A stretch of 41,688 nt of DNA from Bacteroidota bacterium (GTDB lineage Bacteria; Bacteroidota; Bacteroidia; Bacteroidales; UBA7332), in assembly GCA_030706585.1 (NCBI GenBank), contig JAUZOF010000005.1, forward strand, positions 1-41,688, read 5' to 3'. The notes under the pieces are model-generated. The model saw only the letters and a program-made list of their open reading frames with translations. It searched no databases and had not been told where the DNA came from. The translations under genes and the position numbers were made by a program. Position 1 is the stretch's first letter, and each line of letters begins with the position of its first letter. Below, piece after piece: positions 3,281-37,116 of this stretch.

Positions 3281-4204
3281 ATGAACCTCCAACAACTCGA
3301 ATACATCACTGCCCTCGACAAAACCCGTCACTTCGTGCGAGCCGCCGAACTGTGTGGCGTGACGCAACCCACCCTCAGCTCGATGATTCAGAAGCTCGAA
3401 GACGAACTGGGTTGCCGTATCTTCGACCGTTCGGTACATCCTATCGAGCCTACCGTAGCGGGAAAGCTGATCCTCCAACATGCGCAGGTCATCCTGTTTC
3501 ATGTAAAGCAGTTGAATGAAAACGTATTGGCGCAGAAAGGTGAATTATCGGGCTCACTTTCGCTGGCGATTATCCCGACTGTTGTGCCTTACCTGTTGCC
3601 AAAGTTTATCTCCCATTTCCGAAAGGATTATCCGGATGTTTCGCTCAAAGTCTCGGAGATGCAGACTGAGACCATCATCCGCAAGCTCCATTCGGCAGAG
3701 ATTGACATGGCGATACTGGCCACTCCGCTCGAAGACCCGAAAATACTCGAAGTGCCGCTCTATTACGAACGGTTTATCGCTTACATTTCTCCGAAAGAAC
3801 CGATTTACGAAAAGCAAGAATTGTGTCCGCACGAGCTTCCGCTGGAGCACCTCTGGATACTTGAGGAGGGGCACTGCCTGCGCAACCAGGTACTGAACTT
3901 TTGCGAAAGCAAGAGCTTCACCTCAGCAGTTGAGGCCGGCAGTATTGATACGTTGGTGAAGATTGTGGATGAGAATAACGGCTACACGGTCATTCCGGAG
4001 TTGCACATCGAACTGCTGAGCGAAGAGCAAAAGCAAAACCTTCGGGAAATTGTACGTCCCGAGGCGACCCGGGAGATTTCGCTGGTAATCCGCCACGACT
4101 ATGTGCGCGAGGGACTGATGAATGCCGTCGCCAAATGTGTAAAGGAGATTATCCCCGCTCACATGCTGGATACGCGATTGAAGAAATTTGCAATAAAACT
4201 ATAG
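3281..4204 (+). CDS. oxyR: Peroxide-sensing LysR-type regulator OxyR
   Basis: OxyR is a DNA-binding regulator activated by hydrogen peroxide through an intramolecular disulfide. The 307-residue protein starts with a LysR-type winged helix (MNLQQLEYITALDKTRHFVR, residues 1-20, with the helix-turn-helix to about 60) and continues with a periplasmic-binding-like sensor domain. The redox pair is visible as HCLRNQVLNFC, placing cysteines at 199 and 208, the same numbers as the sensor cysteines of E. coli OxyR. It is adjacent to ahpCF, a classic OxyR target. No strong promoter box was identified in the 57-bp gap upstream, so it may be read with the small gene before it. Confidence 0.95.
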   Translation: MNLQQLEYITALDKTRHFVRAAELCGVTQPTLSSMIQKLEDELGCRIFDRSVHPIEPTVAGKLILQHAQVILFHVKQLNENVLAQKGELSGSLSLAIIPTVVPYLLPKFISHFRKDYPDVSLKVSEMQTETIIRKLHSAEIDMAILATPLEDPKILEVPLYYERFIAYISPKEPIYEKQELCPHELPLEHLWILEEGHCLRNQVLNFCESKSFTSAVEAGSIDTLVKIVDENNGYTVIPELHIELLSEEQKQNLREIVRPEATREISLVIRHDYVREGLMNAVAKCVKEIIPAHMLDTRLKKFAIKL

Positions 4205-5679: not shown

Positions 5680-5847
5680 GAAATGCTCCGTCGGCAGGCA
5701 GAAATGCGATAGAGGCACCCGGAAATGCTCCGTCGGCAGGCAGAAATGCGAGAGAGTCATACAGAAATGCTTCGTCGGCACGCAGAAATGCGAGGGAGTC
5801 ATGCAGAAATGCATCAGCGGCACGCAGAAATGCGAGGGAGGCAGACT
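5680..5847. repeat. Eight 21-bp tandem repeats in alternating A/B form
   Basis: Units start exactly every 21 bases at 5680, 5701, 5722, 5743, 5764, 5785, 5806 and 5827. Every unit begins GAAATGC. Odd units continue like TCCGTCGGCAGGCA and even units like GAGAGAGTCATACA, so the higher-order period is 42 bp. The array fills the gap between the convergent genes at 5631 and 5885. Because 21 is a multiple of three, spurious open frames run through it. Confidence 0.9.
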
Positions 5848-9400: not shown

Positions 9401-9625
9401 CGTAACCTGAAGACCGGTTGGCGAAACCTCGAGGACAGTTAGCGAAACCTAGAGGTTGACCTTCGTAAGCTAGAGACTGTTCGGCGAAAGCTAGAGAACG
9501 CATTCCGAAACCTAGAGACTGTTCGGCGTAACATAGAGAACACATTCCGTAACCTAGAGGATGGTTGGCGAAACCTATAGAATGATCTTTGAAAGCACGA
9601 GGACGGCTTCCGAAAGCTCACTTCG
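9401..9625. repeat. Ten 21-bp tandem repeats plus a partial unit
   Basis: Units start every 21 bases from 9401 (9401, 9422, 9443 ... 9590), with a partial unit at 9611. The first half is conserved as CGAAACCTAGAG with small changes; the second half varies, and GACTGTTCGG and GAACGCATTC alternate in units 4-7. The array fills the gap between the convergent regulator gene (stop 9386) and TPR gene (stop 9627). It shares the 21-bp period of the array at 5680 but not its sequence. Confidence 0.9.
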
Positions 9626-32767: not shown

Positions 32768-35459
32768 ATCTGCCACTTTGGAGGATTAGGCGTGAAATAT
32801 GTTGATTCAAATGATGGCTATTGATCAATTCCTCCAGTGTCAAGTGCATTCGGTATCGCCAATAATGCCTTGGATTGGCCGGTATGTTAATGCGTTCTTC
32901 ATTTGCGTCTGCACGTCGTAATTTTTCATCTATTGATAACCAGTCCTGAAATGGGAGGATAACAAGCATAGCCGGTGACCATAAGTGGTTTTCGATGATA
33001 TTTTCACAGATATATGGATCGGCATGATGTGGTGCTTGTCCGTGTTTACCTAATATAGCGTTGTAGTACTGTTGCGTTTTGGCATAATCTTCTTCCCACC
33101 AGCCCCGGATTGTCGTCATATCGTGCGTGGAGGTTGTCGCTACCGAACGATAAGGGTACTGGTTGGTGATACCAAATTCAAAACGATGATCTTTGGGCAT
33201 ACGTTGTATCTCCAGACTCAGAATCTGAAGCTCCTCCAGTACCTGTGGTACACACGAAGGTATCATACCAAGATCTTCCGCGCAAACCAACATGGAAGTT
33301 GAGGAGATTAATGCCGGCAGTTTCTTCATCGCCTGGTTGTGCCAGAACTCATTGTGCCGGTGATAGTAGAAATCATCATATAAGCGGTTAAAACACCATT
33401 TTTCGTGATCATTCAGCGCCTGATACGCATAGGTGAATTGAGCGGATATGCGGGGATGCACTTTGTCAGGCTCTTTCGGATCGTAAACAAACAGGATTTC
33501 ACTGATCAAAGCGTATAATCCGTCTCGTATAAAGAGGCTTTTTTCGTCTTTGAGACCTTTAAAACGGTTTTCAACCTTCTTCTGGGTGATAAATTCCGGT
33601 TTTAACGCCCATTTGTCATGGCTTTTATGATCGAGATAGAGTGACATTACCTCATTCGCGTATTCACCGAAGATCCCGCGGATGACATGATCGTGGATGT
33701 ATGGTCTGGTCATCCACTCATGAAAGTGGAGCCCGTAGTGTTTGATTTCATCAGCGCTCAATGGCAGGGCAGGGCTGAAATGGCCGAGTAGTCCATGAAC
33801 GGCTTCGGCGGGAACTTCCCAGATGCGGAAGAATCCCAGTACATGGTCGATCCTGTACGCATCAAAATAGTCTGCCATTTTTCCAAACCGGCGGCGCCAC
33901 CATTGAAAGTTGTCTTTTTCCATTGCTTCCCAGTTGTATGTTGGAAAGCCCCAGTTTTGGCCATTTACTGCAAAATCATCGGGAGGCGCGCCTGTCTGAC
34001 CATTCATATTAAAGTAATGCGATTCTTTCCAGGCTTCTACGCTGTTGCGGCTGATTCCAATGGGAATATCACCTTTCAGCACCAATCCTTTGTCATGCAC
34101 ATATTGTACAGCTTCAGTCAGTTGTAGGTGCAAATGATATTGCAGGAAATAGTGCAATGCAATTGCGGGATATGCCACTGATTGGCAGCAGGTCAGATTG
34201 GTGATGTTACGAGGATTGAAGTAGGCATAGTTGTGCCATTGGGTAAAGTCTGGCGTGCCGTTCTTGTCCCTCAGATAGCAAAATGCTCCGTAAGGTATCA
34301 GCCACTCTTTGTTGTCGTTGAAGAAATTCAGGAAGTTTTCCGATTTAAGCGTTTTGTCTCCCTCTTGTTTAAATATTTCCCTGAAATATTCCCATTTCGT
34401 CTTGCTGACAGCTTCGTAGTCAATTTCTTTCAGTTGGTTTAGGCTACTACGCTTTTGACTGAAATAGGCCATTCTCTTTTTATTCTTAAGGATACCGATT
34501 TTCTCCGGATTGAGGTAAATCGGATGCAGGGCAAAGATTGAATTGGCATTGTAGGGATAGGAGTCTTCCCAGGTATGCAGCATCGTAGTATCATTGATCG
34601 GTAGGATCTGAATGATTTTCTGTCCGGTGAGTGCTGTCCAGTCAGCAAGTTTTCTGAGATCATCGAATTCACCGATTCCGAAGCTATCATTGGTGCGCAA
34701 TGAAAATACAGGAATCGCCACACCGGCTCCTTTCCAGCCGGCTAGCGGATTTTCAAACTGGAGTCCACTGACTATAATAGCTTCACGCAAGTAAATAATT
34801 TCTGTGTTGAAATGGCGATTCGCTCCGGATTCCCAGGCAACAAGTTGTTGGTTTTCTGAATCTATCAGTACAAATTTATATTCGAGATAAGTAGTTTTGC
34901 AATTGGCCATATCAATGCAGATATCCCATTCCGGAAATGAATTATTATTAAGCAAGATGGCTTTGTCGGGTTGCCAGTTACCCAATACAGGGTCATTACC
35001 CAAAATGGCCAGCTGATATTGAGGCTGAACCGTGGGTGCATAAACTTTTAAGGTAAGGCTTTTTCTATAGATTTTAGGTTCACCTGAAGCGTTATTGTTT
35101 TTTCCTCTGGCAAACAAATGTTGGGTAAATGCGGATGAGAAAAAAGGATTGTTGGGAGGAATAGCCTGCCAATGGTCGCATAGCCGGTAATATTCGTTGG
35201 TTTCATTGACCAGAAAGTGGCGTTGTTTACCCCATTCTTCCCTGATGATCTTCTGGTCAGCCTTGATAATATATCCGTAGGTGAAGGATAGGTCGGCTTT
35301 GCGGGTTTCAATATCATAGGACCAGTTTCCGTTTCCACTGTAGTGCATAAGCACTGCGTGCTGTTTATCTCCGTTCCCCAATTCTGGGATAGAGCCGGTC
35401 AGATAAACTTTTTCATCTCCTTTTGTCCGGTAATTAACCTGAAATTCAATCTGTATCAT
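32766..35459 (-). CDS. malQ: 4-alpha-glucanotransferase with N-terminal starch-binding domains
   Basis: MalQ (amylomaltase, GH77) transfers alpha-1,4-glucan segments among maltodextrins. From the ATG at 35459 the protein has 897 residues; an upstream start at 35486 lies within the promoter region and is unlikely. Two CBM20-like domains occupy about 1-105 and 120-230 (VYLTGSIPELGNG and LAILGNDPVLGNWQPDKAI). The GH77 domain includes FDAYRIDHVLGFFRIWEVP with the nucleophile aspartate, LVCAEDLGMIP with the acid/base glutamate, and TSTHDMTTIRGWW. The layout is that of the DPE2-like group found in Bacteroidota and plants. It is convergent with dnaA. The product is cytoplasmic as no signal peptide is present. 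Confidence 0.95.
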   Translation of the reverse strand: MIQIEFQVNYRTKGDEKVYLTGSIPELGNGDKQHAVLMHYSGNGNWSYDIETRKADLSFTYGYIIKADQKIIREEWGKQRHFLVNETNEYYRLCDHWQAIPPNNPFFSSAFTQHLFARGKNNNASGEPKIYRKSLTLKVYAPTVQPQYQLAILGNDPVLGNWQPDKAILLNNNSFPEWDICIDMANCKTTYLEYKFVLIDSENQQLVAWESGANRHFNTEIIYLREAIIVSGLQFENPLAGWKGAGVAIPVFSLRTNDSFGIGEFDDLRKLADWTALTGQKIIQILPINDTTMLHTWEDSYPYNANSIFALHPIYLNPEKIGILKNKKRMAYFSQKRSSLNQLKEIDYEAVSKTKWEYFREIFKQEGDKTLKSENFLNFFNDNKEWLIPYGAFCYLRDKNGTPDFTQWHNYAYFNPRNITNLTCCQSVAYPAIALHYFLQYHLHLQLTEAVQYVHDKGLVLKGDIPIGISRNSVEAWKESHYFNMNGQTGAPPDDFAVNGQNWGFPTYNWEAMEKDNFQWWRRRFGKMADYFDAYRIDHVLGFFRIWEVPAEAVHGLLGHFSPALPLSADEIKHYGLHFHEWMTRPYIHDHVIRGIFGEYANEVMSLYLDHKSHDKWALKPEFITQKKVENRFKGLKDEKSLFIRDGLYALISEILFVYDPKEPDKVHPRISAQFTYAYQALNDHEKWCFNRLYDDFYYHRHNEFWHNQAMKKLPALISSTSMLVCAEDLGMIPSCVPQVLEELQILSLEIQRMPKDHRFEFGITNQYPYRSVATTSTHDMTTIRGWWEEDYAKTQQYYNAILGKHGQAPHHADPYICENIIENHLWSPAMLVILPFQDWLSIDEKLRRADANEERINIPANPRHYWRYRMHLTLEELINSHHLNQHISRLILQSGR

Positions 35460-35483
35460 GGTCAGTCTTCTTAGGTTCTTTCC

Positions 35484-35513
35484 CAAATGTATTGAAAATC
35501 TTTCTGATTCAAA
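35484..35513 (-). promoter_or_regulatory. Promoter of malQ
   Basis: On the minus strand TTTG (35510-35513) precedes TACATTTG (35484-35491) by 18 bases, one short of the usual 19-21. The -7 box ends 24 bases before the ATG at 35459. Confidence 0.6.
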
Positions 35514-35886
35514 AGAGAATGCGGATGAAATTGAGTGTTAAAGGGATGAGTTGCTGGAAAATGGGGCGTATTTGCAACGGGCAGTGGGGGAAAGTCGTTG
35601 GTTGAATAAGCGGATGATGGATTGACCGGATGGGATAAATGAAAGGATTTAGTTGGGAGGAATGGGGTAGAGAGTGAAAGGGCGATCATGAATATCTCGA
35701 ATTTCATGATTGCTTTAGAGTAGAAAAGTTTATCGTGAATGACTCCTGATTTTTACTCCTATAGCTTTTGTCCGTTCCGGGTGCGCTTCTTGTCCCGGGT
35801 CCTACTATACCATTAGCGCAGTTTCTTATAGGTTTAAGCTTATTACTAGCGTATTTATTAAATTCAAGTTACAGTAGTAACACAGA

Positions 35887-35962
35887 GATATCACAGTCAT
35901 TTAAAAAACTGTAATAACACTGTGTTACCACTGTGACAATACTGTGATATCACTGTGAAATC
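35887..35962. repeat. Five 11-bp direct repeats with an 11-bp inverted partner
   Basis: Units of the form ACTGTGnnnnn begin at 35908, 35919, 35930, 35941 and 35952, exactly 11 bases apart. The unit at 35941-35951 (ACTGTGATATC) also has a perfect inverted copy at 35887-35897. The 11-bp step is close to one helical turn, so the TGTG cores face the same side of the DNA. Function unknown. Confidence 0.8.
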
Positions 35963-36247
35963 TTACTTTAAAAGGCGTTTATAGTATGGTTTTGGTGTGG
36001 TTTTGGTAGGGTAGGAAGACTGTATTCTGAGATTTACCTCTATTCGTTGTCGAATCTGCTAGATCCGTAAAAAAATGAGAAATAAGCCTCGGGTTTGATA
36101 TGGGAAAGTATCACAATGAAAATAAAACAACCGCTTAATTTAATCTACAATTCGGAGCACCCCAAAAGTCGTATTCTGAATGTAAACCACTCCGGAATTT
36201 ATTCCCATTTTAAATTTCTCCTGAAAGATTTCCCTGTAATTATTTCT

Positions 36248-36278
36248 TTTGCACCTAAATATAAAAGCTCTATCTTTG
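36248..36278 (+). promoter_or_regulatory. Promoter of the NfnA/NfnB-type pair
   Basis: TTTG (36248-36251) is followed after exactly 19 bases by TATCTTTG (36271-36278), a full match to the Bacteroidota consensus, 46 bases before the ATG at 36325. Confidence 0.8.
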
Positions 36279-36324
36279 CGCGTTCTTTTTTAGAAACTAT
36301 TTTTCCGTAAAATCACTACACATA

Positions 36325-37116
36325 ATGAACAAAATTGTCAGTAAAGAGTACTTCTCGGAGAAGGTGGTAAAGCTGGAGATTGAAGCTCCTTTGATTGCCC
36401 GTTCCCGCAAAGCAGGACACTTTGTGATTGTAAGAGTGGGGGAGCTGGGAGAGCGTATCCCCCTGACCATCGCGGCTGCCGATAAAGAAAAAGGCACCAT
36501 TACGCTTGTTATCCAAAACGTAGGACGTTCATCAGCCAAGATTTGCGCGCTGAATGAAGGTGAATATATTACCAATGTGGTAGGTCCGCTGGGTAAGGCG
36601 ACACACATCGAAAAGGTAGGTACCGTAGTTTGTGCCGGTGGTGGTGTGGGCGTTGCACCGCTGTTGCCTATTGTTGAGGCATTTAAGGCGGCAGGTAATC
36701 GCGTGATTACCGTGTTGGCTGCCCGTACCAAAGATCTGGTGATCCTCGAAGAGCAGATGAAGCAAAACTCTGACGAGGTAATCGTGATGACTGACGATGG
36801 TTCGTATGGAAATAAGGGGTTGATTACGCAGGGAGTCGAAAGCGTGATTCAACGTGAAAAAGTGGATCTTTGTGTAACCATCGGTCCTGCGGTGATGATG
36901 AAGTTTGTCTCGTTGCTGACTAAGAAATATGAATTGCCAACAGTGGCATCACTCAACACTATCATGGTGGACGGAACCGGAATGTGCGGCGCTTGTCGTA
37001 TTTCTGTGGGAGGAAAAACAAAATTCGTATGTGTGGATGGTCCCGAATTTGACGCTCATCAGGTAGATTTCGATGAAATGCTGATGCGTCTGGGCTCATA
37101 CAAAGATGTGGAGTAA
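36325..37116 (+). CDS. NfnA-type FAD/NAD-binding subunit (ferredoxin-NADP reductase alpha-like)
   Basis: The 263-residue protein belongs to the PyrK/NfnA group: an FAD-binding barrel with RIPLTIAAAD, an NAD-binding part starting VVCAGGGVGVAPLLPI (about 101-116), and a C-terminal [2Fe-2S] site. Ligands appear as Asp216 with Cys221, Cys224 and Cys236 (VDGTGMCGACRISVGG), the Asp-plus-three-Cys pattern described for NfnA. With the next gene it forms a two-subunit enzyme of the NfnAB type (NADH-dependent reduced ferredoxin:NADP oxidoreductase). Annotation as a sulfide dehydrogenase or glutamate synthase partner is also common. A consensus promoter lies upstream. Confidence 0.9.
   Translation: MNKIVSKEYFSEKVVKLEIEAPLIARSRKAGHFVIVRVGELGERIPLTIAAADKEKGTITLVIQNVGRSSAKICALNEGEYITNVVGPLGKATHIEKVGTVVCAGGGVGVAPLLPIVEAFKAAGNRVITVLAARTKDLVILEEQMKQNSDEVIVMTDDGSYGNKGLITQGVESVIQREKVDLCVTIGPAVMMKFVSLLTKKYELPTVASLNTIMVDGTGMCGACRISVGGKTKFVCVDGPEFDAHQVDFDEMLMRLGSYKDVE

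Follow-up and report, generated by a model that had tools for sequence, protein, structure and literature searches.

The helically phased 11-bp repeats between malQ and an NfnA-type gene in the window (the whole 41.7-kb stretch of DNA analysed here) belong to a dispersed, two-armed element, several copies of which adjoin a gene of one family encoding proteins of ~270 residues. Beside these genes the element can be read, by its position, as a promoter. We consider it fairly likely that the array in the window represents an orphaned example, relic or mobilised, of such a helically phased promoter/operator element, of a kind that would be read head-to-tail by a cooperative binder. The interest of the window copy lies in its family, and the observation from which this analysis set out is sound with small corrections.

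Architecture of the window element

The 865-bp gap reported in an earlier note on this DNA covers positions 35460-36324, from malQ (minus strand, start codon at 35459) to the NfnA-type gene (plus strand, start at 36325). That note described five ACTGTG units spaced by exactly 11 bp. The spacing is correct, the count less so: the hexamer is exact at 35919, 35930, 35941 and 35952 and takes the variant form ACTGTA at 35908. The perfect inverted copy placed 44 bp upstream is genuine, GATATCACAGT (35887-35897) being the exact reverse complement of ACTGTGATATC (35941-35951) at that distance. Two further inverted units, AGTAACACAGA (35876-35886) and CAAGTTACAGT (35865-35875), had been missed, and outer 11-bp units, TATGGTTTTGG and TGTGGTTTTGG, occur at 35985-36006, the period also being detected by TRF. 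Outward from an AT-rich centre, both arms consist of rows of 11-mers whose outer units differ in sequence and hold the same phase. Given the inverted units, the centre and the outer units, the feature is a two-armed dyad element of ~200 bp and not a row of five units.

The whole element was placed at 35803-36009 from the 11-mer register in 10 copies and a profile match at 35845-35972, its boundaries being approximate. The centre is CATTTAAAAA (35898-35907), for which the sister species has CCTATATAAA. The right inner arm (35908-35962, plus strand) comprises the five units ACTGTAATAAC, ACTGTGTTACC, ACTGTGACAAT, ACTGTGATATC and ACTGTGAAATC, and is followed by a transition unit, TTACTTTAAAA, and the outer units (35963-36009, plus strand). 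The left inner arm (35865-35897, minus strand) contains the three inverted units and continues into gene-side outer units (35799-35864, minus strand) which resemble, by eye, those of the gene-linked copy L012/L126; across the 168 bp of 35806-35973, identity to L012 is 76%. Within the gap, the period-11 score peaks at 63 of 99, a value reached in none of 2000 first-order shuffles (maximum 50), and the runner-up within the window scored 42. Elsewhere in the window, TRF reported tandem repeats with a period of 21/42 bp at 5680-5843 and 9416-9584.

The consensus of the Bacteroidota -7 box is TAnnTTTG, and matches to it were located for both neighbours: TACATTTG for malQ (35484-35491, minus strand) and TATCTTTG for the NfnA-type gene (36271-36278, plus strand). 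The array had been described as lying between the two promoters, and it does; however, its edges are ~310 bp from the malQ -7 box and ~260 bp from that of the NfnA-type gene (~410 and ~370 bp, respectively, from its centre), distances that provide no tie of the element to either gene. Long-range action of a live regulatory site on one of them would accord with the retention of the array in the sister species, at the same place and with an equal number of units. Yet comparison with the sister species reveals an array no better conserved at this locus than its flanks (213 of 225 positions identical as against 546 of 574). Moreover, among 30 NfnA loci, some with short flanks, malQ occurs in the upstream flank only in the window's genome and its sister. 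With the distance to both -7 boxes also against it, regulation of this kind is quite improbable. The copy in the window is probably an orphan that at present has no effect on the genes beside it.

The TGTGA cores of the units had been likened to Crp half sites. The Crp-site consensus is TGTGAN6TCACA, and the gap contains a single match to it (up to two mismatches being allowed), at 35923 and not in register with the units; what related arrays preserve is an ATA core, not TGTGA. The Crp reading was rejected.

Dispersal of the element

Searches with blastn and a sequence-only profile (R1, built from 10 copies, nine of them orphans) located the element at 12 places in the window's own genome, G000 (25 matches, many representing the two strands of one place), and at 22 places in its sister of the same genus, G001 (39 matches; two of the 22 in identical stretches). 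Across 60 genomes, the window's own included, clear copies were found in these two and weak matches in G049 and G006; the remaining 56, including G002 (same genus) and G003 (same family), yielded no copy under filters stricter than those used for the own genome. By our own reading there are three sequence types, represented by ACTGTGATATC, ACTATTTTATC and CCTGTTATATC. Seven copies have a counterpart at the equivalent place in the sister species, and the pair L003 and L015 differs by exactly three units, or 33 bp. No ORF of at least 70 residues extends across the centre in 33 of 34 copies. Searches of the gap against plasmid DNA and phage DNA returned no match, and none of five pattern matches in viral contigs was a relative.

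Other repeats were encountered alongside. At L112 (1900-2110), CTCTGTG repeats lie between genes at irregular steps of ~9-12 bp; this is a repeat of another kind and was excluded from all counts, that of ORFs among them. Similar CACAGAG repeats occur downstream of the L124 and L130 genes. Another Bacteroidales genome, G049, carries long rows of 11-bp TGACTACTGTA units without a dyad at several places (L113 on contig C308, L086, L088), which were taken as unrelated. Within G001, two separate contigs share a 4.1-kb stretch at 100% identity, at L103 (C1, near 722600) and L104 (C7, near 67800), possibly through a large recent duplication or as an assembly duplicate; because of the latter possibility, they were not counted as evidence of mobility.

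The linked gene family

Profile searches returned 12 family matches in each of the two genomes, among them two distant ones in G000 and, in G001, a remnant and one that is distant or partial, leaving about ten copies per genome. The family is present in six of the 60 genomes, own included, and 24 further loci were found in metagenome-derived genomes bearing the labels Paludibacter, uncultured Bacteroidales, Bacteroidia and Bacteroidota, and one Porphyromonas cangingivalis. Judged by this distribution, the source of the window is probably a Paludibacter-like organism. No significant match was obtained in Pfam (8 members), NCBIfam (5) or PHROGs (2).

An 11-bp array, scored as at least 50 with a top period of 11 or 22, lies within 450 bp upstream of 30 of the 41 family genes that have at least 200 bp of upstream DNA. 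Orthologous pairs are counted separately in this figure, which becomes 28 of 39 when L123, a duplicate of L120, and L140, which shares one array with L139, are removed. The 11 genes below threshold comprise three near misses (L137, L138 and L163), two with arrays farther upstream (L159 and L171) and six with no passing array (L133, L135, L161, L168, L174 and L176), and they count against the orphan-promoter explanation. Of 119 other ORFs scored, 11 passed: four that flank these very arrays divergently (identical place and score), two distant homologues (L147 and L148), three family genes, the window gap and a new orphan array of the same bipartite build. Only the 270-residue genes recur widely as neighbours at the 41 loci. 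A gene of ~350-400 residues lies opposite the 270-residue gene across the array at four of them, as at L155 (1258-2313), L156 (1094-2323) and L157 (1355-2446).

Position of the -7 box

Of 45 family loci, the 33 with a readable array were kept; L121, L123, L127, L133, L135, L140, L161, L162, L168, L170, L174 and L176 were left out for little upstream DNA, duplication or an unclear array. In 23 of the 33, TAnnTTTG occurs on the gene side at 38-61 bp from the dyad centre, and in none on the far side; its density in the same upstream regions would predict ~0.04 per such interval. With centres placed by eye, the box lies at exactly 49.5 bp in ten arrays, and 11 of the other 13 are off by ~5.5 or 11 bp; with automatic centres, it lies at 48-52 bp in 11 of the 33. 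The inner 48 bp are palindromic at 13-19 of 24 pairs across the 33 arrays, a range given with no shuffle control. From this position of the box, the gene-linked element appears to be a promoter whose -33 region, together with the DNA upstream of it, is covered by the array. The ten arrays with no exact box in the 38-61 bp range speak against the orphan-promoter explanation. The earlier suggestion of a regulatory array, whose one-turn phasing would favour cooperative binding along one face, fits these related copies, in which the same architecture forms the putative promoter region and the -7 box stands at a near-fixed distance; the binding is predicted.

The palindromic centre of the gene-linked copies, together with long hairpins in single-strand folds, might point to a structured RNA or to a DNA hairpin or cruciform, and a small RNA had been proposed for the gap. 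However, a known RNA is unsupported, no Rfam model matching the window at gathering thresholds, and the dyad centre of the gene-linked copies lies upstream of the -7 box. Furthermore, the units that pair in the fold are displaced along the arm, at least in L005 (by eye). An element acting through such a structure is very improbable.

A unit code private to each array

A common register was fitted to 34 arrays, that of the window included, and the 31 with enough agreement were analysed. Conservation at positions 1-3 of the 11-mer (ATA) is the same inside an array as from one array to another, whereas agreement at positions 4 and 6-9 is 0.74-0.84 within arrays and 0.33-0.54 between them. The units combine a common ATA core with a code private to each array. 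The stretch was chosen for internal agreement and the register for between-array similarity; neither choice accounts for only some positions differing between arrays. Across 28 genes, protein identity correlates weakly with code similarity (Mantel r 0.255, a value reached in 19 of 5000 permutations), and proteins sharing 40-44% identity can have similar codes (0.83-0.96). As a test of whether each protein is the reader of its own array, these figures point neither way.

Orphan arrays

By our own tally, 15 of the 22 places in G001 have no gene, five lie beside an intact gene and two beside a remnant. Among 20 orphan arrays, namely the solo copies of the first two sequence types including seven orthologous pairs, an exact box is present in one (L099) and missing from 19. 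In the window array, the site equivalent to the -7 box of the gene-linked copies, positioned by hand, reads TACGCTAG (35846-35853, minus strand; two mismatches), and no better box occurs in the range examined. Gene remnants were found at L102 and L108 among 27 arrays taken as solo (two cut by contig ends); none lies alongside the window array, which counts against the orphan-promoter explanation. At the locus of the G000 gene L136, array and box are kept in G001, but homology stops ~77 bp short of the start codon and a search of 5.5 kb there found no gene of the family (best E 0.042), the gene having been either lost in G001 or gained in G000. Together, the two remnants and this locus make gene loss the probable origin of some orphans. 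With nine of the ten first-aligned copies being orphans, promoter function need not be ancestral.

The prevalence of gene-less copies in G001, the rarity of ORFs over the centre and the dyad of two arms would suit a MITE-like mobile element. Its two arms would be the substrate of a transposase, the arrays would spread as DNA, and some would be recruited as promoters. Searches for an empty site at three loci found none, and neither a target duplication nor a precise boundary was seen: no region orthologous to the L012 flanks occurs in G000 or G002, the contig with the G000 counterpart of L106 breaks off on the gene side, and L136 yielded the gene-absent locus described above. The confinement of the box to the gene side and the wide recurrence of 270-residue genes alone as neighbours also argue against such an element, which we consider unlikely.

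In the seven orthologous orphan pairs of G000 and G001, the arrays are identical at 1436 of 1498 positions (95.9%) and the flanks at 3657 of 3921 (93.3%), the flanks being partly coding and the 33-bp deletion of L003 uncounted. With arrays hardly above their flanks, this is no strong sign of selection and lends no support to a present function of the orphans. In a further reading, paralogous promoters, each a phased dyad array in its own code on the ATA core, would be read by diversified, cooperative filament-forming regulators, and the orphans would be live chromosomal binding platforms (for silencing or anchoring) and not relics. We regard this as possible, if rather doubtful.

The 270-residue protein and candidate binders

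The predicted structure of the 270-residue protein (mean pLDDT 86.6, pTM 0.78) combines a hairpin and a helical middle part with a beta domain at the C terminus. Fold searches gave a best E of 6e-4 in the PDB, with a TM of 0.23, and a best E of 0.012 among viral structures; on re-alignment, the matches were mostly C2/arrestin-like sandwiches, with Z up to 7.2 over residues 124-267 and the N-terminal half barely covered. No DNA-binding fold was recognised in this predicted structure, for which coverage lies mainly in the C-terminal half; this and the weakly sandwich-like character of that half are points against the orphan-promoter explanation. PADLOC gave one weak match (SspC, E 0.031). Neither the protein nor a distant homologue matched the phage collection, and the homologue had one match among plasmids (Marivirga, 36% identity). 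Kinship with DUF6266 found no support, there being no Pfam match in 8 members and an hhalign probability of 0.1 for 17 members against one DUF6266 protein. Separately, a DUF6266 gene lies directly upstream of one orphan array (L107, 1298-1921); no paper naming DUF6266 was found in the literature searched.

Eight distant homologues were found in G000, G002, G022, G031 and G039, all eight with a divergent 64-residue protein of HTH-like appearance nearby, for which the Pfam match to HTH_36 (E 0.11) is not significant. In G001, with its many arrays, no such protein was detected at E 1e-4. Two of the eight loci pass the array threshold. Several Bacteroidales genomes carry a compact module of this type (L146, 6564-8152; similar at L144, L145, L147, L148 and L149) comprising the divergent 64-residue HTH-like gene, a distant homologue of ~250 residues and two small membrane proteins (holin-like by eye), in some cases between housekeeping genes.

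Discussion

In Paludibacter-like genomes, the element stands immediately upstream of the family genes: two arms of 11-bp units face each other across an AT-rich centre, and the downstream arm ends at a -7 box ~50 bp from that centre. Under the preferred explanation, a small DNA-binding protein would line one face of the DNA, cooperatively and head-to-tail, with one unit filled at each helical turn; by nucleating on both arms it could govern whether RNA polymerase reaches the -7 box. Between genes, the units differ at a few bases, much as though every promoter had its private version of the site. The window copy would have lost its gene and -7 box, or would have spread without them. The build of the element, its scatter, its linkage to the genes, the box position, the ATA core and the private codes are observed; the binder, its cooperativity, the direction of regulation and the past of the window copy are proposals.

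A family with no significant match in the three databases scanned appears to be run by promoters of one geometry and of a sequence that changes from gene to gene. Fixed spacing combined with diverging units offers a natural experiment on the divergence of binding specificity, and further family members, as well as their regulators, can be sought simply by way of the array. Orphaned promoters may also account, at least partly, for an odd class of intergenic repeats.

In the literature searched, which excluded subscription papers and preprints, no description of a two-armed 11-bp element was found, nor was one met in the consulted passages of a REP survey (PMC3733652). The closest dispersed repeat met in the order is, by description, the BrickBuilt MITE of Porphyromonas gingivalis (Bacteroidales), with 19 intergenic copies in one strain and tandem units (PMC4596501). 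The BrickBuilt unit is, however, 23 nt long as against 11 bp here, its leader and tail have IS5-like ends, and a two-armed dyad or promoter linkage is absent from those parts of its description drawn on here (PMC4596501). The TAACTGA repeats of some Bacteroidetes, including Paludibacter, are likewise intergenic direct repeats, but have 7-nt units and are read as translational signals (PMC4679880).

In its proposed working, the element resembles two known systems. The recombination directionality factors Apl of phage 186, Xis of lambda and Cox of P2 are described as binding tandem sites about one helical turn (10-11 bp) apart, Apl having five or seven sites between repressed promoters (PMC7498355). 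The direct repeats are similarly spaced here, in exact 11-bp steps, whereas the two inverted arms with their centre, and units that differ per promoter, set the present element apart. BldC, a MerR-like protein, is reported to bind direct repeats head-to-tail as cooperative multimers, recognising an AT-rich core and a specific base (PMC5859096); it contacts 9-bp repeats, in contrast to the 11-bp units of the two-armed dyad. By analogy with these systems, the element may be bound in the manner of the directionality factors and BldC on two facing arms, a likeness in working that we put forward with no claim to membership of either group.
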